From Hermatobates lingyangjiaoensis (Eukaryota; Arthropoda; Insecta; Hemiptera; Hermatobatidae), in contig JAPFBL010000068.1 of assembly GCA_026182355.1 (NCBI GenBank), positions 682,001 to 746,000 of the forward strand: a stretch of 64,000 nt of DNA, in the 5' to 3' direction. Each line of letters starts with the position of its first letter. The first letter of the stretch is position 1. Below the pieces are notes generated by a model. The model searched no databases and had not been told where the DNA came from. It saw only the letters and a list, made by a program, of their open reading frames with translations. Made by a program: the position numbers and the translations under genes. This document shows positions 36,400 through 59,751 of this stretch, piece after piece.

Positions 36400-36400
<1 letters not shown>

Positions 36401-36630
36401 CAAGATTTTGCAATAAAAGAGTGAAACAACGATCATCGTTCAAGCCACAATAAGAAATGAGAGAAAAGAATAAGATTTCTCAACCGTACCAAGCGGTCTT
36501 TGTCAAAGTCAAATCTCAATGTGTTGGGATTGTTGGGATTTGACTCTGACGAAGACCGCTTGTTACGCTAAAATGATCTTAGTCTTTTTTCACATTTCTT
36601 ATTGTGGCTTGGACGTTGATATACCCTCTC
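36400..36630. mobile_element. Foldback Penelope-like element, family A copy 1
   Basis: Arms 36441-36515 and 36538-36612 are imperfect inverted copies. Each arm has a hammerhead-like motif: minus 36479-36507 (decayed) and plus 36546-36585 (CTGACGA, AGACCG, CTTGTTA loop, CGCT, AAAATGATC). It starts directly at the (TA)n tract with AACAAGATTTTGCAATAAA, the terminal word shared with copies at 40060 and 54298. Confidence 0.75.
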
Positions 36631-37019
36631 TCTCTCTCTCAAATAAAAAAAAAGTATCTCTCATTCATTGTGGAAATCTGTCTTAGTGGATACGAATTTT
36701 CACCACGCTAAAGTTAATTGTCTAAAATAGTAATATTTATTTTAACAACAGAAACTAAGATGATAGGGAATAGTATAGTCGTTCTTACTTAAGGTACAAA
36801 AATAAAGGTGACATATTATTATTAGTTTTCCTTTAGTAGCATAATTATTTGATGAGTTATTGAAGGGTACAAGTAGTAAAAGAATTAAATTAAAAGTAGA
36901 ATTAACAAGGGATGGTTGGGTATCGAAGTAAGAAAAGTTTTTCGGAATGAAAGGAAGACTGAAGCTTTGGGTAAAACGTTGTTACTTTAGCGGTCAATGA
37001 ATTAGTGAGGCGTGTGGTA

Positions 37020-37268
37020 TATCAGAACTGAGTAGTAAACCAGATGATACTCATACGTAGTTGATAACTACGCGTATCAAACACTTCGTGCTCATCGTCT
37101 GGTAAACTTCCAATGGAAGGAGTGGAGGACAGACAACCTTCGAACGTTGACTCTGAAGATAAACACGAAATGTTTGAATAAAAAACACTTCTTTTGTGTG
37201 GAGACTTTGTAATATCTATTTACCCCAGTATGAGAAAATACCATATTATTACGGATTGCACAACTAAT
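37020..37268 (+). mobile_element. Penelope-like end with hammerhead-like motif, GTGGAGACTTTGTA family
   Basis: At 37153: CTGAAGA, stem II AAACA with TGTTT around a five-base loop, then GAAT. It is followed by TTTGTGTGGAGACTTTGTAA and ATTGCACAACTAA, shared with 17340-17410. The upstream GATGATACTC and GAGCACGATG-like words suggest a decayed left arm. The core after stem II is damaged. Confidence 0.55.
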
Positions 37269-38280
37269 CAGTTACAGATGATATTATATATATTATTAAG
37301 ATATAAAGTCCTCGTGCCTTGTAAATGATACTTTTTCGTCATCAATAATTTAGTCATAGTAGTTGTATTGAATATAACGAGTTTTTTAGCACCACAGATT
37401 ATTAGGTATATTATTAAAGTGAATTTGTGATATAAACAAGCTTGTAATGCCTTATAAATTCAACATAAAGCAACATTTATAGATATGTGACCGTTTATCG
37501 AAGCTTATGTTAAACGTCGATAAAAGTTGGTTGGCATAAGGAGAACAAGGGCAAGGTGTCTAAGCCTGTATCAGATGTAAGAAGCAGTCAGAGTGGGTTA
37601 TCTGAAGTAGCTATAAATGGCATCTCAGGGAAGTCCATATGACGGGTCTGCAGAAATAAAAGCGGCCATTAGACCGCGCTCCCTTGATCAGAATTCTAGC
37701 CCTGCTCTGCCCCGTCACGTGCCAATTTGAATTTCACATCCACCCCTCACAGAGCCAAATAAAACTCCCTAGTCAATGGTATTCTAATTTGACCAATCCC
37801 TAACTTTTTTAAAGCTTTTTTTTTCAACTTTTTTTTTGAATACAGAAAGCAATACAAATTTTTTAGAATTAATTTCTTACTTAACTTATCCGTATTTTCT
37901 TAACTTATAAATACAGCACAACTTTATTTAACCAAGTACTAAAATCAATATTAAACATAACATTTTTTAATATTTATTTAATTTTACTTTTTATTATAAA
38001 GTAATTCTCTATATATATACTCGTATAGTGTTACTATAGGTAATATACACGATTGTTTTACTTATAGAGTGGTTCTATGGACTTATCTCATGGAATAATA
38101 GTATTACTATCCTTTTTCACTCAGTTCTCTCTTTATTTCTCCCTCTCTCTCTTACAGCTGATCCCTGATTCCACCCCTAATGTAACTCTACACTTTTCTC
38201 TCCTGCGTGGCAGATCTATCCTTCAACTCAACCTCTCATTAATTGATCGTAATTATTTTTCTTAGTTCTTGTTTGTTTTA
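37269..38280. other. Non-coding DNA
   Basis: 37600-37760 is GC-richer without a motif. 38100-38260 is pyrimidine-rich with a 62-codon frame; it may be the inner part of the Penelope-like copy that ends at about 38640, but I see no reverse-transcriptase or endonuclease motif. Confidence 0.35.
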
Positions 38281-38640
38281 AAAATATTTGTACAATTTTA
38301 TATGGACTTGTACGTATCTAAGTAATTCATTTTTTATATGCATATTTTCATTTATTATATTAAGTTATTTGTTATTTGTATAATTATTTTATTATAATTT
38401 CATTGTTTTATTGGTTTATTATTATGACTATTGTGCTATTATTATTACTAATTTTTTTTTGTTTTTCTTGTCAACTTACCATCCTGTAGGTGGAAACACT
38501 GACAGAGTGCTTCTGAAAAGGAGATTGTTTTATGGTTTAGTTTGGTTCCTAATGACGATGGGTGTCGAAATATCGCAGTTTTTTTTCTCCTTTGTGTTAT
38601 TTCTTTGTAAATTTATTTAATTTATTTACACTACCAAGTA
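38281..38640 (+). mobile_element. Penelope-like 3' end with hammerhead-like motif, family 2 type
   Basis: A T-rich stretch leads to CTAATGA at 38549, stem II GATGGGTGTC region, GAAA at 38567, ATAT palindrome, C, then GCAGTTTTTTTTCTCC. The order CTNATGAC, stem, GAAATATCG is the same as at 21061 and 28331. The element end is unclear, about 38640. Confidence 0.55.
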
Positions 38641-39210
38641 AACTCATTAAAGTGTGCGTTGATGAACTATGTATTGAAAACGGAGAAGCATTACATATTT
38701 TATACTTTTTCTTATCAATATCACATTAGTATTAAAAATTATATGTGAAAAACAAAAAGAATACGTATTACCATGTCATGATATGAACATTATAAGGGGT
38801 GAAATAACAATAAAAAATTATTGTTATACAATAATTTAATTTAATTTTTTACAATTTAATTATAATAATTTAATGTAATACATTAAATGTTACTGGTATA
38901 GGAAGAGCTCTTACACACTACTGTTCCCAGGCTATTAACTAAAAAATTGAATTGAGCTCAAAACTTAATTAAAAAAAAATACGATTGAAGATAGAGAAAA
39001 TAAGAAATGATTAAAAATGTAATTACAGAAAAATAACTATTTAATAATTTAATTGAACAATACATTTCAATATTTCAGTTAACTACTTGGTTACTATAGA
39101 ACAAATATGACATGCAAGTGTATGATTGATATCAAATAAAATATATAATTCAGATAAAATATAATGTCATATGATATTTAATATCCTATCACATTATTAA
39201 GTGTGATATT

Positions 39211-39770
39211 AAATATATTAATATAGGCTTATCTAAATCGTAATAATTTAGGTTTTTTTTAGTACACTTTTCGATGGCTGTTAGATTTTGCCAGCATTTA
39301 AAATTTTTTCAAACGGAAATTATATGAAGTGACTCTAGTCTTATATAATAATGATAAATATAATAAAGATAATAAATCAATTATAAAATTAATCATATAT
39401 ATATATATATATATATACAATGAAGAGGAAAGACTGTTTATGAAGTTTATCATGATGTAGTTAACCATAAAGTTAGGGATTATGATACGGTTGATAACAC
39501 TGAATGACATGCCATCAATGACAGGCCAAATTTTGATTTTACCAAACAAGAATTTTGATGAAGCCAGATCTAAGAGACATGATGGAAAAAAAGATAGATG
39601 TTTCAAATGTTCATTATTAAAAGCGCTCTGTCGTCCTTTAACTAAAGGTGTGATATTAAATATAACAACAAATTATATTTAATATATATCATAAACTATT
39701 ATAGGCGTAATGTTAAATATATTCACTTAGGCTTATGTAAATCATAGTCATTTAGGCTTTTCAGTTAATT
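39211..39770. repeat. Direct repeat pair of about 58 bp
   Basis: GATATTAAATATATTAATAT with AGGCTTATCTAAATC and ATTTAGG (39211-39258) returns at 39708-39765 as GTTAAATATATTCACT, AGGCTTATGTAAATC, ATTTAGG. Between them are a TA tract (39396-39418) and frames without motifs. Confidence 0.65.
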
Positions 39771-40057
39771 AGTTTTGAATGTCTGTGCTGTTAGTGCCAT
39801 ATTGTTTGGTACAAATTGGTTTCGTGATTGTGTCATTCTTGAATACAGCGTTTTGTTTACACTGAATAGTTTGTGTTAACATTTTCATTCCGACACTCAT
39901 TCATTTTAAACATCTAATTTAAAAGTTTATTGTTTCAAAATTTTACACTTGAAGAAATTTTCTTACATATCACAAAATATTTACATTCGTAATATATGTT
40001 TTATTGTTTTCTTTTTTTGATATATGTAAAATTGATGATTGTTATGTGATAATTATA

Positions 40058-40262
40058 CATAACAAGATTTTACATCAACACGTGAAATAACAATCAATGA
40101 TCAGACACAATATCAAAAGAGAAAAAAGATTAAGATCTTTCAAACGTAACAAGCGGTCTTCGTCAGTTGGGTTTTTGACTCTGACGAAGACTGCTTGTTA
40201 CGGTTGAAATATCTTAGTCTTTTTTCCCTTTTAATATTGTGGTTTAATCATTGATATCTATA
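40058..40262. mobile_element. Foldback Penelope-like element, family A copy 2
   Basis: Starts AACAAGATTTTACATCAACA at 40060. The arms carry the hammerhead-like motif on minus (40131-40167) and plus (40181-40217: CTGACGA, AGACTGCTTGTTACGGTT, GAAATATCTT). The two motifs are separated by only about 13 bases, so it is a compact divergent pair. It ends near ATTGATATCTATACACATAT. Confidence 0.8.
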
Positions 40263-40904
40263 CACATATAAATCCAGTTAGAATACTATACTCTTGGTTG
40301 TGTGTGGGACTAAATTCTAGTAGAGATCTACTGAATATTGTTGAAAGTAGCACTAATGCTACAGGTTTGGCATCTCTGCTCCTGCTTAAGCAAGCATATC
40401 AGCTTTTTTTTTTAATGAGCCTCGTGTGACTTAGGTCCCATTGTATTACTATTTTAATCATAGTATTGGTCATCTATGACATCTATGAGTCTATTGAAAA
40501 CTCACAGTTTTTGGTGCAGTTAGTGTACGTGCTACCATAATGTGAACTACCCGTGAGTCCACGAGAAAACAAAACATTATGCACTCTCTTTCTGAGTGAC
40601 TTAATTCTTCCATCAAATATCCTTCTTGGCATTCCTACCTTCATGGACCTCTCATAATTATTGCTATGAGGAAGTTCTCTAGCCTCCTACTTGACCAGAA
40701 CCATCTTTGGTTATATGCAGATAAAGCTCTCGGTTTATATACAGATCATACCATTGAAATCCGGATTCGGAAGATCAAGTGATTTTAAACCATTTAATAG
40801 CCATTGATGTATGGGAACTTTTCTTGACTGAATCAATTTGTTAAGTCTCTGTTTCATCTCTAAAGTACGTCCCAGTACCGTCCGAGTACCGTCCGAACGA
40901 AAGT

Positions 40905-41108
40905 TCGTAACCACAATAAGAAATGGGAAAACAAGACTAAGATCTTTCAACCGTAACAAGCGGTCTTCGTCAGAGTCAAAAACCCAAACTCAGTTGGGTT
41001 TTTGACTCTGACGAAGACCGCTTGTTACGGTTGAAAGATCTTAGTCTTGTTTTCCCATTTCTTATTGTGGTTTGATCATTGATTGTTATTTCACGTGTTT
41101 ATGTGAAA

Positions 41109-41112
<4 letters not shown>
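40905..41112. mobile_element. Foldback Penelope-like element, family A copy 3, perfect inverted repeat
   Basis: 40909-40987 and 40994-41072 are exact inverted copies of 79 bp around a 6-base loop. Each arm holds the intact motif: minus 40941-40973, plus 41008-41040. It reads CTGACGA, stem II ACCG CTTGTTA CGGT, GAAA, then the AGATCT palindrome followed by U, with GACT before and AGTC after as a 4-bp stem I. To the right, TGATCATTGATTGTTATTTC and CACGTGTTTATGT lead into (TA)n at 41113. The left end is truncated at 40905. Confidence 0.9.

Positions 41113-41149
<37 letters not shown>
41113..41149. repeat. (TA)n microsatellite
   Basis: About 18 TA units directly at the end of the preceding foldback element. 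Confidence 0.95.
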
Positions 41150-41151
<2 letters not shown>

Positions 41152-42519
41152 GTTATATACAATCATAATTTATAGTGTTGTTATTATTATAGATAAATTT
41201 TTTACTTTTAGCACCGCATTATTTTCATTTTACCGTATGAATATTTGTATGTACGCATTTTATCATGTTTTATTTATTAAAGTAAGACTTTTATGTTGTA
41301 ATTTTTTGTGTTTATCTTACTACTCTTATTAACAGAATAGTCTAATATTTGTCATTAAATTTAATCTAACTATGTGAATTAAAAATAACTCACATTAAGA
41401 AATATAAATAGTTTCTTTATTAATTTAACTGTGGTTTATGCCGTTTCAAACTCTGTCGGTAGTCAACAAAACAAATTGACAACACATCTGACGAAAGGAC
41501 TCTATCGCCTCTAGTTAACTACACATGAAATACCTCTTTTCCCTTTCATTCTATATAATTTATTATTCACTAAAGCTATCAAGTTATTTTTGATATATAT
41601 TAGTTTTGCCTAATATGTATAGTAGACATGGAGTACATATTAAATTTGGGGTTTATTTAAAATTTTTTTGTTTCGTTTTTTTGATAGCACTCAGGAAGAT
41701 TAGAAGGGTAGTGGTTGTAACAATTTCTAAACAAATAGTAGCAGTTAGGAGGGTGGAAGAGACCACGTAACAGCAGCAAGAGTCGAGCAGGGGAGCGGTG
41801 AGATTTAATTACCAGATAGACGATACTAGGGGGGGAGTTACGTGAACTGGGACTGTCTTGAATTAACTGATCACGCGAAAGGTTACATTGTCTTCTGCTA
41901 GATCTGACTGCCACGCCGCTCCTTTGCATTCCTAATCACTGGCAACAGGCGTCTTGCCCATTTAGGTAAAAACCCACCTAGCTCCAGTCAATTAAGTCTT
42001 TTATTATACCCATTACTAACTGGTTAATTATATCACTGTGTCCAATGAAATTTTAAAGTGAATTTACATACATTTAAACCTTTTTTTATTCAACTCATAC
42101 ACATATAGAATTTTGCAGTTTCTGTGCTATTGCAGTTAGAAGTTTACCGCAGTTTCCATTTAAGTAATTTATGGCCCACCTAAGTTTCATTGACCCACAT
42201 TATTTTATTGAAACTACATAGTGAGCCCGAAATTGTATCTATTCTGAAAGTAAGAACAATAACATACGCAGATTTTCAACCTGGAATATATAAAAGTCTT
42301 ACACAGAAGAACCTCGTATCTTCAGCACTAATGCCATACAGGTTTGGATTCCTGGAAAACTGACAGAATGTTTTATGACTATTTCCACATACAAAACTTA
42401 AATAGAAATGAGATCCTAACACCTTGGTTACCTTGAGGGCTTCTGAAGAGGAACTTATCAGTTTTCTTGGTTCTAGAATAACTCCCGAACTCAATCTCAA
42501 ACGTTAGATCATTTTTTAC
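41150..42519. other. Non-coding DNA
   Basis: 41690-41950 is GC-richer and open for 90 codons on the minus strand, without a known motif; it may be a relic of a repeat or exon. No splice pair found. 42276-42500 (minus, 74 codons) is similar. Confidence 0.3.
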
Positions 42520-42930
42520 TTCACTCTTTGTTTAATTCTTATTCATTTATATTACTTAATATGTTGTATTTAGTTTTTTTTATTTATATTTTTCGTTCAT
42601 TATTATTCTTTTCCTTCTTTTCCGCTCCCCATTTTATTTTATTTCATATATTATTTGTTATATTAATAGTATTCAGTTTTTTCCTGAGTTACTTTATTTT
42701 TTGTCCCTTCCACACCCTGCCCCACTTTTACTATGACTACTACAAAGAGTTTCTCTAGAGCGGCTTTGCTTTTCAAGGGAGTCACATCTCCTCGTTTGAG
42801 GACAATGATTCGTCAAAATATCAAAGTGGTTTTTTATAATGTTTTCGAAGTGCTCTCTTTTTGAGTTTGGTTTATTAAGTCCTAAGGAACCGAGTCTATT
42901 TTATATTCAATGCTTATATATATATATATC
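42520..42930 (+). mobile_element. Penelope-like end with decayed hammerhead-like motif
   Basis: A T-rich leader is followed at 42795 by TTTGAGGA, stem II GAC with GTC around AATGATTC, then AAAATATC, a decayed form of CTGATGAC, GTC, GAAATATC. The sequence ends in TATATATATATATATC at 42917. The same T-rich leader plus motif plus (TA)n order is seen at 38281 and 52761. Confidence 0.5.
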
Positions 42931-43306
42931 AATGATCAAACCATAATATGAAAATGGGAAGACAAGACTAAGATCTTTCAATCATAACAAGTGGCCTTCG
43001 TCAGAGTCAAAAACCCAACTGAAACATTAGATGCAGGACACTTCTAATGAGGGTTGAGAAGAGCGGAGGGAATAGTGGTATTTTAAAAGGGTGAAAGCAC
43101 AGGAAAGGACTAATGTCCAGAAAGGGATGTTTGGAGAAACAAAAGAGTACAGAAAGAAAGAGCAAACAACTATCTGCTAGCTGTCAACCCTCTTAGAAGA
43201 GGCTTCAACCTTGTTATAGTTGAAAAATCTTAATCTTGTTTTCCCATTTTCATATTGTGGTTTGATCATTGATTGTTATTTCACGTGTTTATGTCAAATC
43301 TTTTTA
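42931..43306. mobile_element. Foldback Penelope-like element, family A copy 4
   Basis: The left arm (minus motif 42972-43004) and the right arm (43203-43300, with GTTGAAAAATCTTAATCTTG and TTTGATCATTGATTGTTATT) match copy 3. About 190 bases of unrelated sequence sit between the arms (from 43021, GAAACATTAGATGCAGGACA, to 43195). The element is flanked by TA tracts on both sides (42917 and 43302). The right motif is decayed. Confidence 0.75.
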
Positions 43307-43520
43307 TATATATATTGATAAAAGTATCGAGCGTGGAATAGGAACAAAACTAAAGTTTATCGAAATCAGAAAAGTGACTAATATCTTTCAACCAACTGAT
43401 ATTGTTTCAACCAAGACATTACCATCTCTTTTATTTTGGAAATTTTTTTATTTCTTACTGTAGTTTAGACGTTAATTCTTATTTCATGTGTTTATTGTGA
43501 AATCTTCTTGTTATGTATAA
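43307..43520 (+). mobile_element. Family A remnant
   Basis: Only the outer arm words survive: ATATCTTTCAACCAA, ATTTCTTACTGTAGTTT, ATTTCATGTGTTTATTGTG and AAATCTTCTTGTTATGTATA. It abuts the previous copy, so two copies sit side by side at one TA-rich site. Confidence 0.5.
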
Positions 43521-43602
43521 TCCTCCGAGTTTGTGTTAGAATGTGTGAGTGTTTTTAATTCTAACGTAGTGCAATCACTTATTATGTGGTATTTACTCAT
43601 CA

Positions 43603-43860
43603 TAGGGTAAAAAGCTAATGAAATGGTCTCCACATATAAAAATGTAATGGTATAAACAACGCGTTTCGAACACGTAGTGTTCTTCCTCAGGCATTGATTC
43701 AGGGTGAGTGTCTGTGGTACAACTGGTACCACAATAGCAGTTGTACCACAGACACTCACTCTTAGTTAATGCCTGAGGAAGAACAGTATGTGTTCGAAAC
43801 GCGTTGTTTATACCATTAAATTTTTATATGTGGAGACCATTTCATTAGCTTTTTACCCTA
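43603..43860. mobile_element. Foldback Penelope-like element, GAAACGCG family, near-complete
   Basis: Arms 43603-43725 and 43738-43860 are both 123 bp with about seven differences, around a 12-base loop. Motifs: minus 43659-43691 and plus 43772-43807. Each has CTGAGGA, stem II of the GAACA / TGTTC type, GAAA, then the self-complementary ACGCGT followed by U. The outer ends TAGGGTAAAAAGCTAATG are sharp. This is the best-defined copy of the family also seen at 14762 and 25337. Confidence 0.85.
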
Positions 43861-44900
43861 CAGTGAGTGTTTTTGTTTCCGTGTGTGCACATGTGTGAAT
43901 TTGGTTGCATTCATTTGAAATAAACTGGTGGTATCTGTCACCAATAGGAAAAGCATTTGGAATGTTAGCAAAGAACTAAAAAAAATAACGTGAAATATAT
44001 CAGTTATATTCATTTATCGCATATATATGTTTGTAAGTAAGGGTTAGTTGTTTTAATTTTCAATTGAGTAATGAATATAATTATGTGTTAAACACGTCTG
44101 TTTTAATTAATTTTAATGGAAATTAAATGCAGATTGAAAATGGAATATTAATGAAAACAAATAAAAAAGGGAGCGGATATTAATCTGTTTCGACCCTGTT
44201 TTAAATGAAATATTTTAACACCTGAATTACACTTGAAATAAAAAATTCAAAAGTTAGGTCTTATTAAAAAAAGAACTAACTCCCTTTAGTAGATCTTTTT
44301 TTATATTTATTTTAATAAGCCATTTATAGAACACATCCAATTAGGTTCCTTAATTAGTAGACGAAAGTCGATCGTCTAAACTTTGATTACAGTACATTCC
44401 AGTTAATTGGAGAATAACTTGGTTCCTTTTCAAATTCGCTGCGTTTTCGATAAAAAGGGCCAATAGCAAGAACAAGAAAACTTAATTGGAAGGGAAAGAG
44501 GGTAAAGTCAACCACTGCTGCAGTCAGATAATGATCAATATAATATCAAAGGGTCACTTAGACGGCAAAAATATCGGAAGGAGCATTCCTCAATAATCAC
44601 ATTTATCAATTTCTTTTTATAATATCTCCCACTTTCTTTTTTAATTTCGTGTAAAATAAGCCTTAAGAGTCTGATTTATTTAAAGTGTAAGTTTTGAGAT
44701 TCTGCAATCTGTAAATATAGCTGAAATGCTCATTCTTCAATGAACTTATTCTGATGATCTAGTAGTCATTGTAATTCAGAAAATGACGCTATTATATTAC
44801 ATCAAATTACGTTGGATATTGTCTTTATAGCATCATCGAATCTGTGCGACTTCTTCATCAAGGAAAAATGATTATTGTTTCCGTTGTCCTTGATGTTTAC
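43861..44900. other. Non-coding AT-rich DNA
   Basis: No gene or clear repeat. Confidence 0.4.
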
Positions 44901-44997
44901 CTTATCATCAGTCCATCGTTCTTTTTTTAATGGATTTATCCAAATATAGTGTTCACTATCATACTTTAACTCTTTACAGATGTGAGTAATAGAAATG
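44901..44997 (-). CDS. Candidate 97-nt exon, unknown product
   Basis: On the minus strand, CCCTCACCAG precedes 44997 and the segment ends GATAAG at 44901, followed by GTAAAC, so both splice signals are present, though the pyrimidine tract is weak. The open frame reads ISITHICKELKYDSEHYIWI and continues NPLKKERWTDDK, a plausible soluble-protein composition. The frame also stays open past the donor (to 44802), so the exon ends are not certain. I recognise no family. Confidence 0.3.
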
Positions 44998-45376
44998 CTG
45001 GTGAGGGTTTTTTCAGACAATTTTTAAATATCTAGGCAATTGGATTGTAGAGAAGTTAATTCCATTTTTCTTGCCCATCAGTGAAGTAAACTGTAAGAAC
45101 TAGAAGAGGTAGTGTTTGTAGATACTCAGGCAGCTTTGACGTCACCACATGACAGTGAGTCGCGTGAAGTCGTAGAATGCTTTGCTCCAATAGAAACTTG
45201 ATTACAGATGGTTGGATTATTGCTATTCAGTGGGTTTCCAGTCATTGAGGTATAATGGCTAATCAAAAGGCCTATCAGTCAGTAAAGTGGGGAACACAAA
45301 TGGAGCAATTACCTAGGTCCTTGGAATATATTGCAATTCTCATACTCTAACTAGAAGTACCTATTTAGCATGTTTC

Positions 45377-45595
45377 AGATTGGCTATAGGTGATGGTTTT
45401 CTCAGTGAGCACCACCATCTAATAGATATTTCTGACCGTCCAAATTTTGTCTCATTCGGATATACTACAATAGATGGAGTACATCTTCAAAACTGCGAAT
45501 TCCTTAAGAAATTTAATGTAGACACAGTAGACGACTTATCAAAGACTAGTGTGATGAAAAATATTGATAAATATATAGTCAGAAAATTGTATTAA
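45377..45595 (+). CDS. Candidate terminal exon or ORF, unknown product
   Basis: The 71-codon frame begins just after a CATGTTTCAG (possible acceptor ending at 45370) and ends TAA at 45595. The peptide (IDISDRPNFVSFGYTTIDGV, then HLQNCEFLKKFNVDTVDDLS) has high complexity and few AT-bias residues, unlike chance frames nearby. No signal peptide or known motif. There is no polypyrimidine tract, so the acceptor is weak. It may be a last exon, a processed pseudogene piece or a transposon protein fragment. Confidence 0.3.
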   Translation, partial: RLAIGDGFLSEHHHLIDISDRPNFVSFGYTTIDGVHLQNCEFLKKFNVDTVDDLSKTSVMKNIDKYIVRKLY

Positions 45596-45599
45596 GGGG

Positions 45600-46790
45600 C
45601 TTATTTTTTATTCAAAATATCTTACTTCAACTAAATATCTAACTATTCTTAATTTTTGATCATGGCCCTTTATGGGAGATAGTGTTTTCTAGTAAGAATT
45701 TTATATTAAATCTTTATAATGAATCGGGTATTCTTCTTAATGGCATTTCAGTCATGTCTACTTATTAAATGTCTGGCCTTTAAAGCGGACTTTTTTTTAT
45801 TCATGTCCTTTTATGGAGGAAGATGTTATATTTCGGTATACAGTCATCCGCTATGGAACTTCACTTGTGAGTTACCTTAGAGATATTGTTTGCCTGTTTC
45901 TCTAACGGAGAGTTGACATATTCCGGTGTTCAAAGATCTACTACACCGCCCTGTTAAATGGCAGAATCGTAAAGCAAAACATTATGGTATCAGAAGTGTG
46001 TCTCTTTCTGTACAGTGATTTCCATCATGGAACGTTGATACAGTATAGATTTACGGTATAAACATGTTTATACGTGTTTTGTTCCTTTGTGGTATCTATT
46101 TTTAATCATTGGAGTCTTCTGTAAAAGGTTCACTTCATAATATAAATATGAAGTACAACTGAAACAAAGATGGTTTCTAAATTTCCGATATTAAGTGTTT
46201 TTGAAAGAAAATAGTCTCGTTTATATCAACAAAGGTTACCAAAGAGTGGTAGTAAATTATTGATAGAGTCACAAAGGTTTGTGAGTTGTCACAAAGTTGA
46301 GAATCAGCCCTCCTAAAGGTGAGTCAGTTATTGATGGCCCTCTCCTAGCAAATCATTCCTCTCTATACTTCAACCTCAAACCGCAATTAATTGATACATA
46401 TCTTTTACATTCCTCGATTTCATAAATTTGTCAAATAAACTTATAGATTTGAACAAGTTTATCTTCTTTTATACAATACAAAAACCTAAATGTACAATGC
46501 CTTTTTAAACATAGTTTATACATTAAATTCTTCAGTTAGACAATTTTTTTCGTGATTTTTCATTAAAACTTTACATCCATGAACTGTCTAAACTATTTAA
46601 CGTTATGAAAAAACAAGGGTCATTGCCCATTTTCGAACCTGTAATCTTTTACTAAAGGATACATGATACTTGTTAGCATGTGTCTAAACCTTAAGAAAGA
46701 TAAAATCTATAATTAGTACATTTGAAGATAACTAAAGTTTAAATTTAGTTGATAACTAGTTTCATAAACGCTATGGTATCCTGATGAACT
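45600..46790. other. Non-coding AT-rich DNA
   Basis: No gene or repeat family recognised. Confidence 0.4.
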
Positions 46791-46803
46791 GTGTTTTGCT
46801 TCA

Positions 46804-47005
46804 GCAAGATAAATACATCATCGGACACCATCCAACAAAAAACAAACGACACAAACAACAATTATAGTACCCAGTTGTTGTTTGTGTCATTTGTTTTTTG
46901 TTGGATGGTGTCCGATGATGTATTTATCTTGCTTTACTTATGTCGTTTTAATAAATTGTTTTTTAGCCTTGAAAATGCCAAACAACTTTTAGCGAAACGT
47001 CGGCT
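46804..47005 (+). mobile_element. Foldback element with adjacent hammerhead-like motif, GAAACGTC family
   Basis: 46804-46861 and 46875-46932 are 58-bp inverted copies with one difference and a 13-base loop. Downstream at 46967-47001 the plus strand reads AGCCTTGAAAATG, a loop, TTTTAGC, GAAACGTCGG. This is the CCTTGA...GAAACGTC type, in which ACGT is the short palindrome and C the cleavage base. The related motif at 58534-58570 (minus) shares AGCCTTGATAATG and ATCGG. Confidence 0.6.
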
Positions 47006-47099
47006 GATGATCAGGAGTTGTATGTTTTATGACCAAAATCCTCAATAACCCCTTATGTGAATTTGAAATATCAGTGGTCGAGAAACTATATCAATATAT

Positions 47100-47103
<4 letters not shown>

Positions 47104-47150
<47 letters not shown>
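47104..47150. repeat. (TA)n microsatellite
   Basis: About 23 TA units; the isoleucine-tyrosine runs in overlapping frames come from it. Confidence 0.95.
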
Positions 47151-47151
<1 letters not shown>

Positions 47152-47339
47152 CATTAATCAATACTTCATCTAATTTATAAAGTTCTAGGCTATTATTCAT
47201 TAATTCCCCATAAAAGTTATTTATGATTGAACTTCCGAGAATATTTCTTCTTCTTTCCGAAGACACAAATACTAATTCACCTGCTTCATCCCAATTAATT
47301 ATATGATTAATGTATAATTAATATGATTAATATATGCAT

Positions 47340-47425
47340 GAACAAAGGTCTCTTTTCGTCTTCTCTAAGCAAAGGTCGAAATATTGAAATGAGTTTTATT
47401 ATTTTATCTCTGTGTCCTTTTTTTT
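47340..47425 (+). mobile_element. Penelope-like remnant, family 2 type
   Basis: CTTCTCTAAGCAAAGG then TCGAAATATTGAAATGAG and TTTTATCTCTGTGTCC resemble the downstream half of the family 2 hammerhead region (GAAATATCGAAGTGAG, TTTCTGTGTTC). The CTGATGA half is lost. Confidence 0.4.
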
Positions 47426-47444
47426 TAATCCTTACAAATGTATA

Positions 47445-47830
47445 CAGGGTTGGGCAAGGTTGTCACTCGATAGTAAATTGAAACCATTTTATTTCAAGAG
47501 GTATTTATTTTTAACAACTAAATGAACAAGAATAACTGATTAAAACATGTAAATATGAAACATGTTTAAAATTGTTTAAACTTATATCATTTTTACCTAT
47601 TTAGATTTGAAAAATTATTAAAATTATTTAAATTGTCGCCCCTCTTGAGAGACACATGTTTCCATTCCAGTCAATACAGAGGTACAGATTTTACAACACA
47701 GTACCTTATTAGCATTAAGTGGTTTGAACTGAGATATTTTAGAAGCTTGCTTCTGTGCCAGAGTCCTTGGTTTTCCTCTAATAACATTAACTTTCATCAT
47801 TCCCCAAGTACCACCTCTAACCACTTTTAA
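47445..47830 (-). pseudogene. hAT-like remnant with a BED/CGGBP1-like zinc finger
   Basis: CAGGGTTGGGCAAGG at 47445 looks like a hAT terminal repeat. The minus frame from 47824 to 47624 reads VNVIRGKPRTLAQKQASKIS, then NKVLCCKICTSVLTG, where CKIC gives a CxxC pair in the setting of the BED-type finger at the N-terminus of hAT transposases and CGGBP1-like proteins. The following histidines are not in frame, and only about 180 bp separate the frame's end from the terminal repeat. It is therefore an internally deleted element, or a decayed N-terminal piece. No right-hand terminal repeat found. Confidence 0.4.
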
Positions 47831-48121
47831 CTCACATATTCAACCAATAAACATTCATATTTGAAATGAATTAAAAAACTGAATATTTAGTGTTCATGAA
47901 CGTTTCATTTTAGTGTCAGATGATTTATAAACTAAAAAATATAAACTAAATTCAAAAAAAGAAAACACATAAAAGAGATCACAAAAGCTTACTATTACAC
48001 TGTGACTGTATCGTAATGAGGTAGTTAATGTGAGTCACTCCGAAGAAAAGCGAGGACTGAAGTCTGTCTCATTCACGAGCCAACCTACAGAGGAGAGGGG
48101 AGATAAGGATAAATAGAATAA

Positions 48122-48345
48122 ATAATGATAAAACCACAATAAGAAAATAACAATAATGGGAAAACAAGAATAAGATCTTTCAACCGTAACAAGCGGTCTT
48201 CGTCAGAGTCAAAAACCCAACTGAACACTAGATGCAGAAAACATCTGGTGAGGAGTTGTGAAGATCTTAGTCTTGTTTTCTCATTTCTTATTGTGGTTTG
48301 ATAATTGATTGTTATTTCACGTGTTTATGTCAAATCTTTTTATAT
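48122..48345. mobile_element. Foldback Penelope-like element, family A copy 5
   Basis: The left arm has AACCACAATAAGAAAAT and an intact minus motif at 48174-48206 (CTGACGA, AGACCGCTTGTTACGGTT, GAAAGATC). The right arm has kept GATCTTAGTCTTGTTTTC and TATTGTGGTTTG, then ATTGATTGTTATTTCACGTG, but lost the CTGACGA half. The text between (CCAACTGAACACTAGATGCA) matches the start of the inner insert of copy 4 at 43016. It ends at TATATAATGATATATA. Confidence 0.75.
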
Positions 48346-49170
48346 AATGATATATATAAATGCTACCATCTAGCACGTCTTTTATATTTTGGGATTCACA
48401 TTGTCATATGAGAGTTAAGCCATTCGAGCTTAGAAAATACCTCTATTACTCCTAGAGCACGGCTACCCTTGAACTGAACTAATTCTAATGACTCGCACCT
48501 GTTGCTTTGAGATCAGTGACAAGTGAACTAGGTCTCAAGGCAGTGTGGCAGAGTGTCTCAGTTACCTTGGAATTTGAACTAGAACCGTCTGAAGGTAAAC
48601 ACCACATGATACACAGTCCCAGAAGCCCCTGAAGTACAATAGTATTTAGTGTGCATTCTGATGATATACCAAACCCTCCCATATTCTTAAAAAAGAGCTC
48701 TATTATTATCTTTCCCATAGCCATAGTACGACAAATAACGCTCCCTTTTGCCTCATTTAGAGGTAACTCCTCTTAATATTAATACACTCTTGGTTTAGCC
48801 AGTGACGCTTGGCAATTCAATCATCTTCCTCACAAAATGAGGGAGTCCTCATCTATTGGCCACCACCTAGTGCAATACAATATGGTTGTACCGAGATATG
48901 CTTTCTGTTTTTATATTTCGCCAAATGAAGTATGTCTATACAAACAATGCCCCCAATTTTGTAAATTAGCCTTCCAGTTATCATTTGCTGATCAGAATAT
49001 TTTCTATTGGTCTAATTAGCTATCTCTATTTCATACAGTGTATAGGTCTAGCTAATATTAGATTTGTGGAATCATATACCTTAATACAAGAGAAATCACC
49101 AACTGCTAGCTGGTCCTTAACTATCTAATAAAATTATTCTTATTTTAAAAAAAACTAATTCATTAAATTA
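48346..49170. other. Non-coding DNA
   Basis: GC-richer than average, with 60-80-codon frames at 48485-48724 (minus) and 48837-49019 (plus). No motif recognised; possibly more LINE-derived material given the LINE pieces that follow. Confidence 0.3.
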
Positions 49171-49330
49171 TATGTTGCAGGGAAGGCTGGAAGATCACGG
49201 GAACCTAATTTATATAGGGTATCCAGATCCAAGTGGATATCTGCTACACCCACGTCGAGTGGCTAGGTCGAACACAGGAGCCTATTGGGGGATGCTGAGC
49301 AGTAGCCAGCGACCAACTGAGTGTCTACAC
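49171..49330 (+). mobile_element. LINE 5'-region repeat, copy 1
   Basis: Matches 50026-50196 (TATGTTGCAGG, AGGGTATCCAGATCCAAGTG, ACCCACGYCGAGTGGCTA, GGGGATGCTGAGCAGTAGCC). Such a block standing upstream of LINE coding remnants on the same strand suggests repeated 5'-UTR units of an R1/Jockey-like element. Confidence 0.6.
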
Positions 49331-49663
49331 TGACAGGTCGATTCAGTAGGTTCTCTGACCTGGTGTAACACCGGTAATCCAAAGATGGCTCGGCTAAGGT
49401 ATGGTATAAATGTTTTTATCAACATACAATTCCTGAAACACTGAAAACAAACCGTTCTCAGTGAGAACAGTTCCACGCATTTGTACATGCCCTTTTAATT
49501 TGATTTCATCCTCTTTGAGTTTGTTATTGTTTTGTTTCTTTTTTCATAAATTGTGTGAAACAAGCAGTTACCTTCACTGGAGTTACCTTCAAAGTGGAGA
49601 GTGATTGCTAAAGCATTGTTACTTTTGTCAGGCGGCTAACAGGTCAGGACCCAACGTTTAAGG

Positions 49664-49762
49664 ATGGTCGCTGCCAGACCTGCACAGACTATTCTGCCTA
49701 CAGCACCAGAGTTCAAAAAGAAAAAGAAAATCTCTCCTGCATGTCGGGAGGAAGCAGTGTAA
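49664..49762 (+). pseudogene. Possible LINE ORF1 start, broken
   Basis: An ATG at 49664 opens 32 codons: MVAARPAQTILPTAPEFK, then a lysine run and SPACREEAV before a stop at 49760-49762. A basic, proline- and alanine-rich N-terminus is usual for LINE ORF1 (gag-like) proteins. Open stretches in other frames continue to about 49900 (YLHHKPFSGATQC), which suggests frameshifts. Its place between the two 5'-region repeats and upstream of the RT fossil at 50740 supports a LINE origin. No CCHC knuckle is seen. Confidence 0.35.
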
Positions 49763-50025
49763 TGGTGAATAAGGGAGATATTCCCTTTTTTCTTTCTCAC
49801 ACTAAAGTACAAAAGGGAAGAAGGAATATAATGAAAGCCAGAGACGGCTACCTGCACCACAAACCCTTCTCTGGTGCAACCCAGTGCTGAATAAGGTATT
49901 TGGTGCAGGAAGTCTACTTTTAATCTTGTAACGTTAAGCTTAAGTACGTAAGGTTAAGACCAAGGTAAAATATTAGGTATCTCAAAAAACTTATGGGTAA
50001 CATAATTAATGCTATAGTTCATGGA

Positions 50026-50196
50026 TATATGTTGCAGGACAAGCTGGAAGAGATGACGGAAACCTCATCTATGTAGGGTATCCAGATCCAAGTGACTATC
50101 TACTACTATACCCACGCCGAGTGGCTACGTCGAAGACAGGTTGCAATATTTGAGCCTATCAGGGGAATGCTGAGCAGTAGCCAACGACCAACTAAG
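50026..50196 (+). mobile_element. LINE 5'-region repeat, copy 2
   Basis: Second copy of 49171-49330, about 855 bp downstream in the same orientation, with a 15-base extra piece near 50130. Together they look like two 5' units of one LINE family or two nested insertions. Confidence 0.6.
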
Positions 50197-50739
50197 TCCT
50201 TAACATTCTTAATTGTTTTAATTTCAGAGAATTAGTTGCGGTGTCTCTTAAGGTTCCAATGGAGGGAGGAGGATATTTCAAGACGGTGTTGCCTCTGTAT
50301 ATCTTTCTGGGAAATAAACCTCCTAGGAGACTGTTATAGAAAGAATAGTATACAATATATAGTTGGCTGCAAAGTCATGTCCATCCCAATGGTGTGGGGA
50401 AGTTTCTACATCAACAAAACAGGTGAAAAATTTTATTAAATTTGTATGAGTAATAATTGAGATAGAATAAATAAGGATAACAAACCCTTCTCTGTAATCA
50501 AGTTGAAACAGCAGGTTTTACATAAACTCTTTGTAATTCCCACCTTGTAGACATGGATTAAAATTCGTATATGTCATGTGAGTCCTATCTATCTGAGCAC
50601 AGACATAAATTTCACTGTAAATACTAAATTAATCTTTAAGGACTCCTTTAGGAAACTAAAATCAGTTTTGATGCTATATTTAGAATTCTTAGAGTTTGAA
50701 GTGAATGTTTTAAATAAAGTTACACTCCCTCACTGAGTA

Positions 50740-51245
50740 TAATAAAGTGTTAAGAAGGGTAAAGAGGAAATCGTAAAAAGCTTTTTGAGAAGACAGAAAC
50801 AGTCTTAATAAAGTCTGACTGTTACGAAGAGAAAATTCTACCATATTGGTTTACTAGGTAAAGAGAATGAAGGTTTCACCGATAATAAGGATAAGACAAT
50901 AAAATTGTTAATGGAGGTAAACTTTTCTAGCTTCTTCATTCTCAAGAGAAATAAAGGTATGATAACCATTATATCCTTCGTATAAATCATTGAAGAAAAC
51001 TGAAATAATGCTCACAGAGGTGTGCAAATATCTTGGAGTATCTTTAGATGAATGATGAAGTAGGAAAATACATGTAATAAATACATTAGCTAAAGCAAAA
51101 AAAGTACAGGTCTGCTGTAAGAGATTCTTTGACAGGACTTCACTTGAAATCTACGCATTAGCTCCAGACGGCTGTCGCCAGACCAATAGTATCTTACGTA
51201 TTATTAATGTGATATCGAAAAGTATATGAAAGTGCCATTCAACCT
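50740..51245 (+). pseudogene. R1/Jockey-like LINE reverse transcriptase fossil
   Basis: In plus-strand order: KVLRRVKRKS (pre-RT linker), then TIKLLMEVNF (the AIxxLMExHFP block before the palm), then after a jump EVCKYLGVSLDE (the KYLGVxLD block after the palm), then VINTLAKAKKVQ with CCKRFFDRT, then in another frame LQTAVARPIVSYVLL (the thumb xRPIVSY block). These are in the right order for an R1/Jockey-type RT, but the palm itself with motifs A to D is missing between about 50960 and 51010. There are several stops and at least one frameshift. A dead, internally deleted copy on the same strand as the 5'-region repeats upstream. Confidence 0.8.
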
Positions 51246-51249
51246 TTTT

Positions 51250-52679
51250 ACAAAAAGAAAAAAAAACAAACTCTATCATTATAAAAATTACACTCAAGGG
51301 ATATAATTAACCCTAATTATTTCTGATAATAGCGTGAATCTTTATTAGTTTTATTCTTTGTTATTTTTTTTATATTGTCATTTTATAAATATAGCATTAT
51401 ATATTTGCTTTTATTTTACTAAGAAAGTTAAAGTTAGTTCGCATAAATCCATAGTATTATATATATTCTTGAAATTTTTTAATTGTTATTATGCTTGTAT
51501 TAACTATATTAAATGATTACCACATACCAAATACATTTCAAATATAATCAACCGTATTAGCGTTGATATGGTTGATTGATAACTATAACTAATGACTAAT
51601 AACTAAAACTAATTGATAACTTCTGATTAAATCACCTCCCCTTTTCAAACTATTTAATTACTTGATTAACTGTATATTTAAAACAGTGTTTCACTTAACA
51701 GTTATCGTAACTTATCTCATTTTTCTCACGTCGTCCAACTATAACTTCGTAATAAGTAGCTAAAAGGTGGTGGTGAAATTATAATTTAGTGCTTAGTTAA
51801 ATTTCTGGTTAATAATTTAAGAATACGTTTACAATTGAATACTAATTAGGTAATTGAGTACAATTCAGTATAGTTCAAACATTGAATCCTTTTTTTTTTA
51901 AATAAAAGATAATGCCGTTATATTTTATGCTCTGTGGAATTAAAATGTTATCATTGTGATTATGGAAAGGGAATTATTGAGGTAGTGTTATAAAAACAAC
52001 TGCTGTATGCTGTAGGAAGGAAGTTTGAGTTGTGTTATATTTAAATTAGACTGAAATACCTCTATGTTGAAATCGTTTTTGTCAATCCAGTGATAATGTC
52101 GAGCAACTTTTAAATGACACTTGTCACGAATGCCATGAAAGCTTGTCGCAGTTATATTAACCAACCGTGTTGAGGCAATGTCAACAAAAAAAAAAAGGCA
52201 ACATGAAAACAATAAAGGGACTCTCTTTAAATAATTCACAAATAAAGTTATTTTTAATTAACCATAGCATCAGTACCTAATCTATAGCTCAACTTTTACC
52301 GTGTCATTTGCAGCGAGTATTGGCTATTGACATCGCGAGTATTTATCGTTTGACGTAAACTTTTTTGTTTGTTTGTTTGATTAATCAACTATAAGCTGAT
52401 CAAAGCTATCATTAGCAGCCAAAAAATTATTTATGCATCTGTGTGTGTATGAAGAGAAGATTGTGTTGTTATGATATGTGTTGATTATGTTCAATTTTTT
52501 TGACTAATGGTACGTAAAGCTTCAGTACGTAAACAGTTTTTCAGAACAACACTTGTTCAGTTTGTATATCTGTAGGTACGAGTACTGTATACGTGAATAT
52601 ATATAGATTGTTAAATAACGTCCCATATTTGGATTGTAATTATTTTGTTTTTTTGAAAAATTTTTCAAAAACCGATAAA
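51250..52679. other. Non-coding AT-rich DNA
   Basis: An 83-codon minus frame at 51988-52239 has no motif. No repeat family recognised. Confidence 0.4.
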
Positions 52680-52701
52680 AGAAAATATGGGGCGATATTT
52701 A

Positions 52702-52704
<3 letters not shown>
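52680..52704 (+). mobile_element. Short Penelope-like end fragment
   Basis: AAATATGGGGCGATATTTAA matches AAATATGGCGCAATATTTAA in the foldback at 59752-60146 and likewise stands at a TA tract. Probably the last bases of another copy. Confidence 0.45.

Positions 52705-52755
<51 letters not shown>
52705..52755. repeat. (TA)n microsatellite
   Basis: About 25 TA units between two Penelope-like fragments. Confidence 0.95.
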
Positions 52756-52757
<2 letters not shown>

Positions 52758-53455
52758 TTCAGAGTGACCTATAGGTACACAGTAAATAGAAGAACACACA
52801 GTCTCTAATTTTTGGTTTAACCGTCATCAGGTGAGAGGAGATACGGACACCAAGTATTCTTCCAAAAGCGACGGTTGGAGACCGTAAAAGTAAAGAATTT
52901 TAAAGAGATGAACTTGTTTAAAGGGTTAGAGATATTTTTTTTTCTTTTTTATATTGTTTTCTTTTACTTTTCAAATATTATTTTGTGTATATTTTTTATT
53001 GTTTATTATTATTATTTTTTATTTTATTTATCCAATTTCATTTTGCATTTCTTTCTTATTTTGTTATGGCTACCTTTCAAAGTAGTTTTAACTTAACCTT
53101 TCATTTTATTATTTATATAACTTAGTTTTTATTTTTTTATTAATTTTAACATATAATTTATTTTAATACTTTTCATTATACTCGTATTTTGTAATATATA
53201 GAGTTCCTCATTCTCTTAGTAGTTATTTATTTTCACAGTGCCATATTAACTAACTATTTTATTCTTCAGTTTTTTACGTTCTTAGTTTATTTTTCTTACT
53301 TCACTTGATCAGGGCACGCGTGTAAAAACACTGTTGATCTGCAACCGTCGCTATCTCTTCTCTCCTGATGACAGTTAAACCGAAAATTAGAGGCTTTAAG
53401 TGTTTTTCTATTGACTGTGTGTACCTATATCTACCCTGAAACATATATGTATATA
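52756..53455. mobile_element. Penelope-like foldback, AATT family
   Basis: The left arm (52756-52880) and right arm (53310-53455) are inverted relatives: AGGTACACAGTAAATAGAAG faces CTATTGACTGTGTGTACCTA. Motifs: minus 52806-52830 (CTGATGAC, GGTTAAACC, AAAAATTAGAG) and plus 53365-53391 (CTGATGAC, AGTTAAACC, GAAAATTAGAG). After GAA comes the AATT palindrome and A; CTC before and GAG after can form stem I. The 430-bp T-rich middle (52920-53280) has no RT or endonuclease motif. (TA)n stands at the left, TATATGTATATAATG at the right. Confidence 0.75.
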
Positions 53456-54289
53456 ATGTATGTGGAATAAAAGCTAAAATATATTTGTGGGTTTTTTAAG
53501 TTTAAATCAAACTTCTTAACATAATCTTTCAGTTATTTAAAACATTTTTGATAGACCTAAAATATAAAAATCAATATCAATCAACAGCCATACTGACATC
53601 AATGATGCAAAGCTACAGTGTATAAAATAATACTACAAATATAAGAGTTAAAAAGTTTACAGAATTACGAAATGTTGAAGTTGAAAAAGAATGAGCTATT
53701 ACATTAGAGATTTTAAATAAATAATTATTTAATGAAAACTTTAACAGAACTGTCAGCATAAAGGAGAATGCTTGACTAAAATATTAATTCAAAATTTTTT
53801 AATGTTTTTTCACTAAAACATTACAAACCAATTTTTACTAAGTTATATAAAATTACTCTGACTGATACAAGTAATCAAAGTTTTATTAACTAAAACACCT
53901 GGACAAATAGTATTCAATTAGTAATAACACTTCTATAGTCCAGGGATGACTGATTCTTCTTAACACAGCATTTTCAATTCTTTTTTTCTATCTTCATGAT
54001 GTTCATTAATTCATTTATTTATTAAAAAATAAATAGAAAATTAAATTAGATGAATAAAATATGAAATAATAAGAACAAATATACACAACATACAATTTAA
54101 AAAGTGAAAGAAAATAATATAAGAAAGAAACGATAAAAATAAATAAATAAATTTCTTTATCATACTATCTATTTTGTGTAGATAAATTATGGCCTTAATA
54201 CGTACATGTGCTGCAGATGGAGAGACATTGCTGATAAACATTATATTTCTGTTATAATCAATAGTCGATACCTTAAACAGATTTATAAA
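53456..54289. other. Non-coding AT-rich DNA
   Basis: No gene or repeat family seen. Confidence 0.45.
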
Positions 54290-54545
54290 TACATATGAAA
54301 CAAGATTTCACAATAAACATGTGAAATAAAAATCAACTTAAAACCACAGTAAGAAATGAGAAAAAAGGTCTGTTTTTTCAGATCTTTTTTGTCAGAGTCA
54401 AATGTCGATTTCAACTGAAATCTATCAGTTGAAGTCTGCTTGCTACGTTTGAAAGATGTTAGTCTTTTTTCTCTTTTCTTTCTTTGGTTTGAACGTTGAT
54501 AAATTCATATTTATGTAGTTTACGTGTAACGCTGACAAAAAACTG
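54290..54545. mobile_element. Foldback Penelope-like element, family A copy 6, decayed
   Basis: Starts AACAAGATTTCACAATAAAC and has AAACCACAGTAAGAAATGAG (left) and TTTCTTTCTTTGGTTTGAACGT (right) as arms. The motifs survive only in part: TTTTGTCAGAGTC on the left, TGAAGTCTGCTTGCTACGTT and GAAAGATGTTAGTC on the right. The most diverged of the family A copies. Confidence 0.65.
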
Positions 54546-58531: not shown

Positions 58532-58572
58532 CTTCCGATGTTTTGAAAATTCATATTTTCATTATCAAGGCT
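58532..58572 (-). mobile_element. Solitary hammerhead-like motif, GAAACGTC family
   Basis: On the minus strand: AGCCTTGATAATG, stem II GAAAAT with ATTTTC, then AAAACATCGG where the intact form would be GAAACGTCGG. It matches the plus motif at 46967-47001. The core G is changed, so the copy is likely dead. Confidence 0.5.
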
Positions 58573-59751
58573 ACAAAGAAATGCATAATTCATAATTAGA
58601 AACTAAAAAAATGTAGGGATTAAAGCAAAAAAAAAAGATAATTAAACGTACCTTACATCATAGGTAGAAGTTTTAAACGGTTGGTTTTAACTGACTCAGG
58701 CTATGATCTGAGGAGGTGATATAGTTGTATGGGAAATAACAAATAAATAGTAAAAAACATTTTAAGGCACAAAAATTCTGAATTCAAATAACATAATGAA
58801 TGAAATAAACGAGGGTAAAAAGAACAAAAAAATAATAGGTAACAATACGTGGACGCATAGAAGCATGGATAACATGAAAGATATCAGATTTGTTTGGTAA
58901 AATTATGGTGCATAACACTCAGTCCTTACTTTATTTTTTTAACATATAATATAAAATCATTAGATTCTTAATAAATCCGGCAATTGCTGCAGATAATCCA
59001 TTAGCCTGCGTTGAGTTTTCAGTTTTTATAGCTGTAATAACATAATTGATGATCCAGAATTTAAGACATCATTTTGCAACTCGAATATTTATGCTGCATG
59101 TGTTGGTCTTAAATCCTTGCTTCTCTATTATTAAAATAGCCAACATGCAGTTGGTATAGATTTTTAGAACAATGTAAGTAAGTCTTGGGTTGTGAAATTA
59201 TTGAAGGCTACTGCATCCAATGCTCCACTTATATTAGCGCCACAATTATTTTGTTGAACCTTCATAAATGGATCTCTTTATTGACATATGAGCTCACAGT
59301 ATTCATTCTTTGAAGTAAATCTGAACGGCCGTTCACTTAGTAGATTGTTCCTACACAGTTGAACAACACACTGTTCACAAATAATTTTTCCGGGCCTTTC
59401 CCCTCACAGGTAACAAATTGATCGTTCGAAATTTATGATCTGTATTGTCTTTTCCTTGTTCTTATAATAATATATTTTATGTCAGATTTCCTACAGGTTA
59501 CATTAGGTTTTACACTATGAATGCTGCCATTTCATTCTGAAGTCCCTATGGTATCTTCGCTCTGCGATTCCAACTGCTGTCTCTGATGTGTCTGTCCACA
59601 TCATAGCATTGATAGTGTAAAACCAATAACGTTCATCTGTTTTGTATGCCCTTGCAAATTGATTTTGATAAAATATGGTGTATGTATTTCCTTGTCTTTC
59701 AACTTCTTGAATTTACAATTCAAGTAATATAGGACTGTTCCCTATATATAT
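58573..59751. other. Non-coding DNA
   Basis: No gene. 59310-59650 is slightly GC-richer without a motif. Confidence 0.4.

Follow-up and report, generated by a model that had tools for sequence, protein, structure and literature searches.

The window analysed here is a stretch of 64,000 nucleotides (nt) from the genome of Hermatobates lingyangjiaoensis (contig JAPFBL010000068.1, positions 682,001 to 746,000), and it holds small foldback elements, among them those of a family named F1, that carry a motif resembling a hammerhead ribozyme. Minimal hammerhead motifs were reportedly described in Penelope-like elements, and in massive numbers in animal genomes, by Cervera and de la Pena in 2014. An earlier note on the window claimed that the order CTGANGA, short stem II, GAAA, palindrome and cleavable base recurs there about 25 times on both strands, and that most of the inverted repeats are non-autonomous ends derived from Penelope-like retroelements. 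Its observation is partly confirmed by the present analysis, and its interpretation is partly supported.

An F1 element consists of two arms placed head to head, with a tail on one arm and TA-rich ends, and it encodes nothing. At 40909-41112, the arms are 79 nt long and 100% complementary, the motif lies at 40945-40973 on the minus strand and at 41008-41036 on the plus strand, and the tailed right arm is followed by (TA)n. The copy at 40064-40255 also has one tailed arm and one without a tail (motifs at 40138-40166, minus, and 40181-40209, plus), and that at 36413-36620 has a tail on its left arm, which is a weak match, and none on its right (motif at 36462-36517, minus). Further copies lie at 42928-43302, with a spacer of 187 nt (motif at 42960-43015, minus), and at 48109-48338 (motif at 48178-48206, minus), and a degraded one at 54302-54500 is the sole copy scored with tails on both arms, the second tail being weak. 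A palindrome of another family, F2, at 43595-43868, has arms of 134 nt that are 92% complementary, motifs at 43664-43690 (minus) and 43773-43799 (plus), and ACGCGT after GAA. On the plus strand at 46803-47097 lies a truncated copy of Penelope type, with an inverted left arm (46803-46861/46875-46933), a motif of the variant core U3-A8 described below (46958-47013) and a tailed right end at a (TA)n run (47094-47150). It is 98% identical over 133 nt to the 3' end of the type seen at L038, one of the loci fetched from the same genome.

A hammerhead-like motif with one extra base

In the canonical hammerhead, stem II follows directly after A9. When both strands of the window were scanned with an exact descriptor (CTGANGA, zero to two free bases, a stem of at least 4 bp, then GAAA), eight matches were found in the 64 kb, while 100 dinucleotide shuffles gave a mean of 0.44 and a maximum of 2; the string is real, and it occurs on both strands. 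With up to one mismatch allowed, 12 matches were found and split by the spacing before stem II (60 shuffles): nine had one extra base (shuffles: mean 2.15, maximum 5), one had none (2.43) and two had two (2.03). The excess over shuffles is confined to the class with one extra base, hereafter +1, and the motif differs in this from the canonical hammerhead, as one base lies between CTGANGA and stem II.

A covariance search with the Rfam hammerhead models, proposed earlier as a check, gave no match in the window at the gathering score or at E<=10, and none at E<=10 in eight further loci; the extra base before stem II is a likely reason why these models find none. A genome-wide search with RF00163 was also empty, its controls were equally silent, and it is uninformative. 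For a covariance model, 20 family representatives of this genome were used, among them three copies from the window. It gave 29 matches in the window at E<=1, of which 23 reached E<=0.1 and 16 reached E<0.01; 13 of the 23 and 10 of the 16 lie inside 36400-54545. These counts come near the figure of about 25 copies given earlier, but since the model was trained on the same genome, window copies included, they represent recall and not independent proof. Some strong-looking microRNA matches, to MIR831, MIR7127 and others, were rejected as long hairpins with scores under the curated cut-offs.

The anatomy of the motif was counted in 363,492 bases, made up of the window and the fetched loci. One extra base was present in 58 of 60 CTGANGA matches (A in 43, T in 10, C in five), and the core of a type I hammerhead, CUGANGA...GAA, was found in 53 matches with C3 and G8, which had 15 different stem II sequences (mean of 0.4 in five shuffles). 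For the palindrome statistics, identical sequences were collapsed first, and those that remain are related by descent. A palindrome of 4 or 6 nt starting from the last A of GAAA was found in 31 of 40 distinct C3-G8 sequences and in 17 of 20 with U3-A8. Of 6172 GAAA sites taken as background, 14% had one, and the palindrome noted earlier is borne out. The base after it (N17) was C or U in 44 of 48 (background 59%) and G in three of 48 (background 12%; these are few, descent-related sequences), and the stem I-side bases flanking the core (1.1-2.1) were paired in 40 of 48. Helix III is represented by a palindrome of 4 to 6 nt, and could at best amount to one or two pairs, or form in a dimer. A one-pair helix III or a palindrome-mediated dimer has been described for amphibian hammerheads; in the axolotl, for which 126,247 motifs are given, helix III of HHR_Amex1 is one pair capped by a palindromic tetraloop, according to the available part of that report (PMC7229834). 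RNAfold predicted both stems, I and II, for the F1 motif (40995-41062), together with three extra core pairs; z was -1.30, and 19 of 200 shuffles did as well. It predicted these two stems for the L038 motif too, with z -2.57 and one of 200 shuffles equally good.

Genome-wide abundance

The assembly comprises 910 Mb in 1629 contigs, from which 20 arbitrary 10-kb samples (200 kb, contigs C1-C20) were drawn. The exact descriptor found 36 matches in them, about 180 per Mb; every match had one extra base, and spacings of zero, two or three bases were absent, while shuffles gave 0.15-0.30 per spacing class and about 0.8 for all spacings together. Throughout the assembly, the +1 pattern CTGANGANG-N(4-24)-CGAAACG occurred at 35,110 places (40 for a reversed-pattern control), and the corresponding pattern without an extra base, +0, at 587 (control 33), with at least one place common to both lists.

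The very high local load claimed in the earlier note is not supported by comparison with these samples. At E<0.01, the covariance model gave 63 matches in the samples (0.315 per kb) vs 16 in the window (0.25 per kb), and 13 in the window at the bit threshold of the samples (about 20.8). The 18.1-kb interval alone had 10 matches (0.55 per kb), or about 1.7 times the sample mean, a figure that carries no significance test and comes from a model partly trained on copies of that interval. The motif load is genome-wide and no property of the window, with a modest local excess possible in the interval.

Autonomous elements and the one-tail rule

A search with the Pfam GIY-YIG model gave at least 142 matches in the genome when the best 150 of 9198 candidates were scored, and many of them formed head-to-head pairs. 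At locus L033, a frame carries GIY-YIG above the Pfam cut-off, and RVT_1 at 28.4 bits, just under the cut-off of 29.6 bits. This frame has 765 homologues; among the 120 listed, all carry PF26215, most carry PF00078 and PF28514, and none is named Penelope. Since a reverse transcriptase (RT) and GIY-YIG in one open reading frame (ORF) define a Penelope-like element (PMC11167929), elements of the L033 type are called Penelope-like herein. The RT/GIY-YIG elements carry the +1 motif near their 3' end.

Anatomy was scored both in these copies and in F1. Sixteen loci hold copies at least 93% identical to L033, nine of which show both outer ends within a locus of 3.2 kb; because their inner junctions differ, the end pairs of these nine two-armed copies arose anew. 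Another locus has a second arm that lacks its end, and the rest are single-armed. Arms of the L033 type end at either of two points about 31 nt apart, and all 14 palindromes scored at both ends, a second subfamily included, had the extension of about 31 nt on exactly one arm. These were L016, L025, L029, L034, L035, L036, L039, L042, L044, L045, L049, L050 and the pairs L023/L031 and L024/L026; one-arm loci, the window copy and L040, whose two arms meet end to end and were taken as separate insertions, were excluded. The F1 survey covered the window and loci L001-L020, with 68 arms forming 27 palindromic pairs and 14 unpaired arms that were left out. One long and one short end were found in 24 of the 25 classifiable pairs, two of the 27 being unclassifiable. 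For both sets together, 38 of 39 scored palindromes had exactly one tail, the Penelope-type copy of the window being uncounted. The count adds that nearly every scored palindrome in the genome uses each of two start sites once.

The flanks of F1 are mostly TA-rich. Shared flanks of 9-13 nt were seen by eye at L001, L002 and L004, and TA repeats leave most others ambiguous. At L039, L040 and L045, a Penelope-type insertion and an F1 or another Penelope-type insertion lie end to end at one TA-rich place, as if the ends recreated targets. The GIY-YIG matches at L021 (C1092) and L027 (C1502) lie on contigs with dense, long, bacterial-looking frames, which give the impression, and only that, of a symbiont or contaminant. 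The SLX1 gene of the genome has its best match at 53%, and its best named matches, at 44-46%, are mostly from Hymenoptera.

Two core classes at positions 3 and 8

In the active hammerhead, base 3 pairs with base 8. In one lineage of the RT/GIY-YIG copies, TTGANAA replaces CTGANGA, giving U3-A8 instead of C3-G8, with the same extra base, mostly T, with AGCC/GGCU as stem I, and with GAAACGTC. Bases 3 and 8 were counted in a 16-cell table (one extra base, stem of at least 5; 363 kb; five shuffles), which is a fairer test than a covariation count whose representatives were partly picked by core and stem. Matched classes dominated the table, C-G with 53 and U-A with 38, the means of the five shuffles being at most 1. 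The broken pairs A3-A8, C3-A8 and C3-U8 were found three, three and two times, C3-C8, U3-G8 and U3-U8 once each, and the remaining cells held none. In an anole element, the C3G and G8C single mutants were dead and the double mutant was partly restored, as the accessible part of that paper has it (PMC11167929).

The U3-A8 pattern occurred at 5,796 places genome-wide (control 107). The exchange as such rests on 363 kb of fetched sequence, where 36 of the 38 U3-A8 matches came from L021-L051, the loci obtained via the GIY-YIG search, and amount to essentially one lineage. Only two were found in the 264 kb selected without regard to GIY-YIG (the window and L001-L020), one of them probably a chance match. 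A single ancestral exchange would account for the U3-A8 class.

A second lineage and its possible start codon

A second GIY-YIG lineage is found at L051 (C354:129301-132600), which has a head-to-head centre, a direct repeat of the pseudo-long terminal repeat (pLTR) and tail, and an inverted copy. GIY-YIG lies in a frame of 276 amino acids (aa), and a 629-aa frame has no Pfam match but shows YVDD by eye; the inverted copy has an open frame of 850 aa, and the plus copy is split over two frames. By eye, the pLTR reads GTTGCGA-ATGAAGA-T-GGACCAGATCC-GAAAGCGCT-C, with a stem II of 3 bp that the descriptor search did not report. A frame that starts in this motif reads MDQIRKRS, and its AUG joins A9 and the extra U to the base that opens stem II; the cut would be expected 23 nt after the A of the AUG. 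The inverted copy has a second in-frame AUG six bases upstream, inside the core, so the AUG of the motif need not be the true start. At this place in the L033 lineage, the frame opened by the AUG runs into a stop after 10-12 codons, as judged by eye, and a general role of the extra U in a start codon was therefore rejected.

Discussion

We consider it highly probable that the main foldbacks are non-autonomous insertions made by Penelope-like machinery, and that they carry a +1 variant of the hammerhead motif. The Penelope origin asserted in the earlier note for most of the inverted repeats is favoured, for F1, by its anatomy (head-to-head arms, a tail on one arm, TA-rich ends), by RT/GIY-YIG elements with the same kind of motif and anatomy and by the truncated copy at about 46803-47097; it is not favoured by the sequence of F1, which has nothing in common with the autonomous 3' ends compared. 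According to the proposed mechanism, a Penelope-like enzyme, combining reverse transcriptase and GIY-YIG nuclease, would cut both strands of AT-rich or (TA)n DNA, and reverse transcription of the RNA of the element would begin on both sides, at a proximal internal site in one case and at a distal one in the other. Each insertion would then consist of two inverted arms, head to head, only one of which bears the tail of about 30 nt. At some 45-100 nt from its end, each full arm holds a minimal hammerhead-like fold of type I (stem I, core, stem II), with the palindrome in place of stem III and the extra base between A9 and stem II. On read-through transcripts, the motif probably acts as a ribozyme that is weak, assisted by protein or of the dimer type. 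We infer mobilisation in trans, bilateral priming and self-cleavage.

Known elements offer parallels to several of these steps. In Penelope-like elements with minimal hammerheads in their pLTRs, the motif likewise lacks a true helix III and lies near the RT start site, to the extent that the available parts of two reports describe it (PMC11167929, PMC6155905), and RT and GIY-YIG likewise share one ORF (PMC11167929). In the anole element Poseidon, two RT start sites delimit the stretch that equals the tail, both strands are cut and extended by the protein, and the strands do not differ in start site in vitro (PMC11167929). The Penelope elements of bdelloid rotifers, as far as the accessible part of the relevant paper goes, have inverted pLTRs with a 31-bp tail at one of them, head-to-head arrangements being the most frequent; target duplications of 8-10 bp and the transfer of unrelated sequence in trans are described, and head-to-head pairs are attributed to self-priming on an antisense template (PMC3846280). 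In the same part of that paper, however, the tail is optional and few copies are described (PMC3846280), whereas nearly all palindromes scored here (38 of 39) have exactly one.

Several of our results weigh against this reading or parts of it. The arms of F1 showed no convincing similarity to five stretches of the autonomous L033, L034, L038 and L051 (best E 0.015). The same inner junction of F1 (q19/q1, 4-nt overlap) recurs at L009, L010, L016 and window position 40064, so that some copies may spread as ready-made palindromes and inherit their pair of ends. The Penelope-type copy in the window breaks the one-tail rule, as its left arm ends before the motif. As for the ribozyme itself, the helix II of a true hammerhead, directly after A9, is not what the genome prefers (+1 at 35,110 places vs +0 at 587), the Rfam models are silent in the window and the eight further loci, broken 3-8 pairs occur, the folding score of F1 is weak (z -1.30), and the minimum-energy RNAfold structures of F2 and of 59990-60060 lack the hammerhead fold. 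In L051, A3 lies opposite G8, which breaks the 3-8 pair and means that the motif may be inactive. Moreover, mutation of the ribozyme in the anole element does not abolish insertion, and no ends of RNA were observed at the cut site (PMC11167929).

The last result is also what one would expect if the motif were a binding or priming structure for a Penelope-type reverse transcriptase, its hammerhead-like shape being kept and its cleavage lost. Inserted copies do hold an uncut motif, and in the anole no reads begin or end at the cut site (PMC11167929). We regard this as a possibility, though a doubtful one, because features linked to catalysis persist, namely the GAAA, the C or U after the palindrome (44/48) and the 1.1-2.1 pairing (40/48), and because positions 3 and 8 fall into two matched classes. 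It is unlikely that F1 and the other foldbacks are miniature inverted-repeat transposable elements (MITEs) of DNA transposons, moved by a transposase, and that they carry the hammerhead-like string by coincidence. Foldbacks of the Tc1/mariner type would also have long, nearly perfect inverted arms and TA-rich flanks, and the recurrence of some F1 inner junctions and the lack of shared sequence with autonomous Penelope ends point the same way; unlike terminal inverted repeats, however, the two ends of F1 differ from each other, and they do so in one consistent manner in 24 of 25 classifiable copies, the RT/GIY-YIG copies obey the same one-tail rule, and the motif recurs with unrelated stem II sequences.

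There is very little to be said for the foldbacks as retrozymes, that is, as non-autonomous elements which contain canonical type I hammerheads and are propagated in the form of small circular RNAs. They are indeed non-coding and abundant, with a short palindromic helix III like that of axolotl HHR_Amex1, but the available part of the same report presents animal retrozymes and the hammerheads of newt and axolotl as direct tandem repeats with typical type I motifs, and mentions no extra core base (PMC7229834). The foldbacks here have arms paired in inverted orientation and a +1 core. When the consensus units listed for the tandem repeats of the window were inspected by eye, the motif was seen in none of them. 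Chance in AT-rich sequence, which the shortness of the specified parts of the loose pattern in the earlier note might have suggested, is practically out of the question at 8 vs 0.44 in the window, 36 vs about 0.8 in 200 kb and 35,110 vs 40 in the genome.

Beyond the Penelope origin of the foldbacks, we tentatively advance a joint reading that has perhaps a lesser chance of being right in all its parts. Its parts are a distinct class of retroelement hammerheads, with an obligatory residue between A9 and helix II and with U3-A8 in place of C3-G8 in an autonomous lineage, a switch at L051 that links the start codon to the cut, and RT start at two positions of the RNA, one per DNA strand. De la Pena and Flores are said to have reported in 2001 a viroid hammerhead with an extra residue between A9 and helix II that is compatible with cleavage. 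That case is reportedly an exception among hammerheads, whereas the residue is the rule in the retroelement-borne population found here. Compared with the known Penelope hammerheads, the families examined here have an extra base after A9, and one autonomous lineage has U3-A8. Neither feature is claimed as unpublished, and literature searches by motif sequence strings and by C3-G8/G8A gave nothing relevant.

If the joint reading is true, the start of translation and the cut may lie within one and the same structure of L051, and cleavage would separate the start codon from its frame, thereby switching a messenger to a template. The Rfam models used miss the whole population, and hammerheads in animal genomes may be undercounted where these models were relied on. 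With a large natural +1 set that includes a U3-A8 lineage, it could be possible to test the model of the active site without mutagenesis. The one-tail rule, in turn, is a countable genomic prediction for Penelope integration, the later steps of which are yet to be validated (PMC11167929).

Other features of the window

Further matches to the motif lie outside the families described above. A hairpin at 59931-60067 holds matches at 59952-60005 (minus) and 60010-60036 (plus), with CAGAAGA as core, an extra T and the palindrome ACATGT. On the minus strand, a single motif with a long loop lies at 25398-25443 (CTGAAGA, an extra A, GAACA..TGTTC, GAAA, CGCGT), and a covariance model match at 58525-58579 (E=1.5e-6). 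The stretch 52764-53440 has inverted arms about 600 nt apart, as judged by eye, adjoins a (TA)n run (52705-52755) and holds CTGATGA-C-GGTT..AACC. It gave no covariance model match, and relatives of its motif, CTGAAGA with mostly an extra C, are found at L010, L017 and L020. At 49192-50197, two stretches of 56 and 36 nt are each repeated about 860-875 nt apart, with 86% and 92% identity. A minisatellite of 21 bp (AAAAGACACAAAGACAGACAC, about 22 copies) occupies 7925-8470; it is open in several frames on both strands, and all ORFs of the window that run from start to stop with at least 150 aa, three in number, lie within it.

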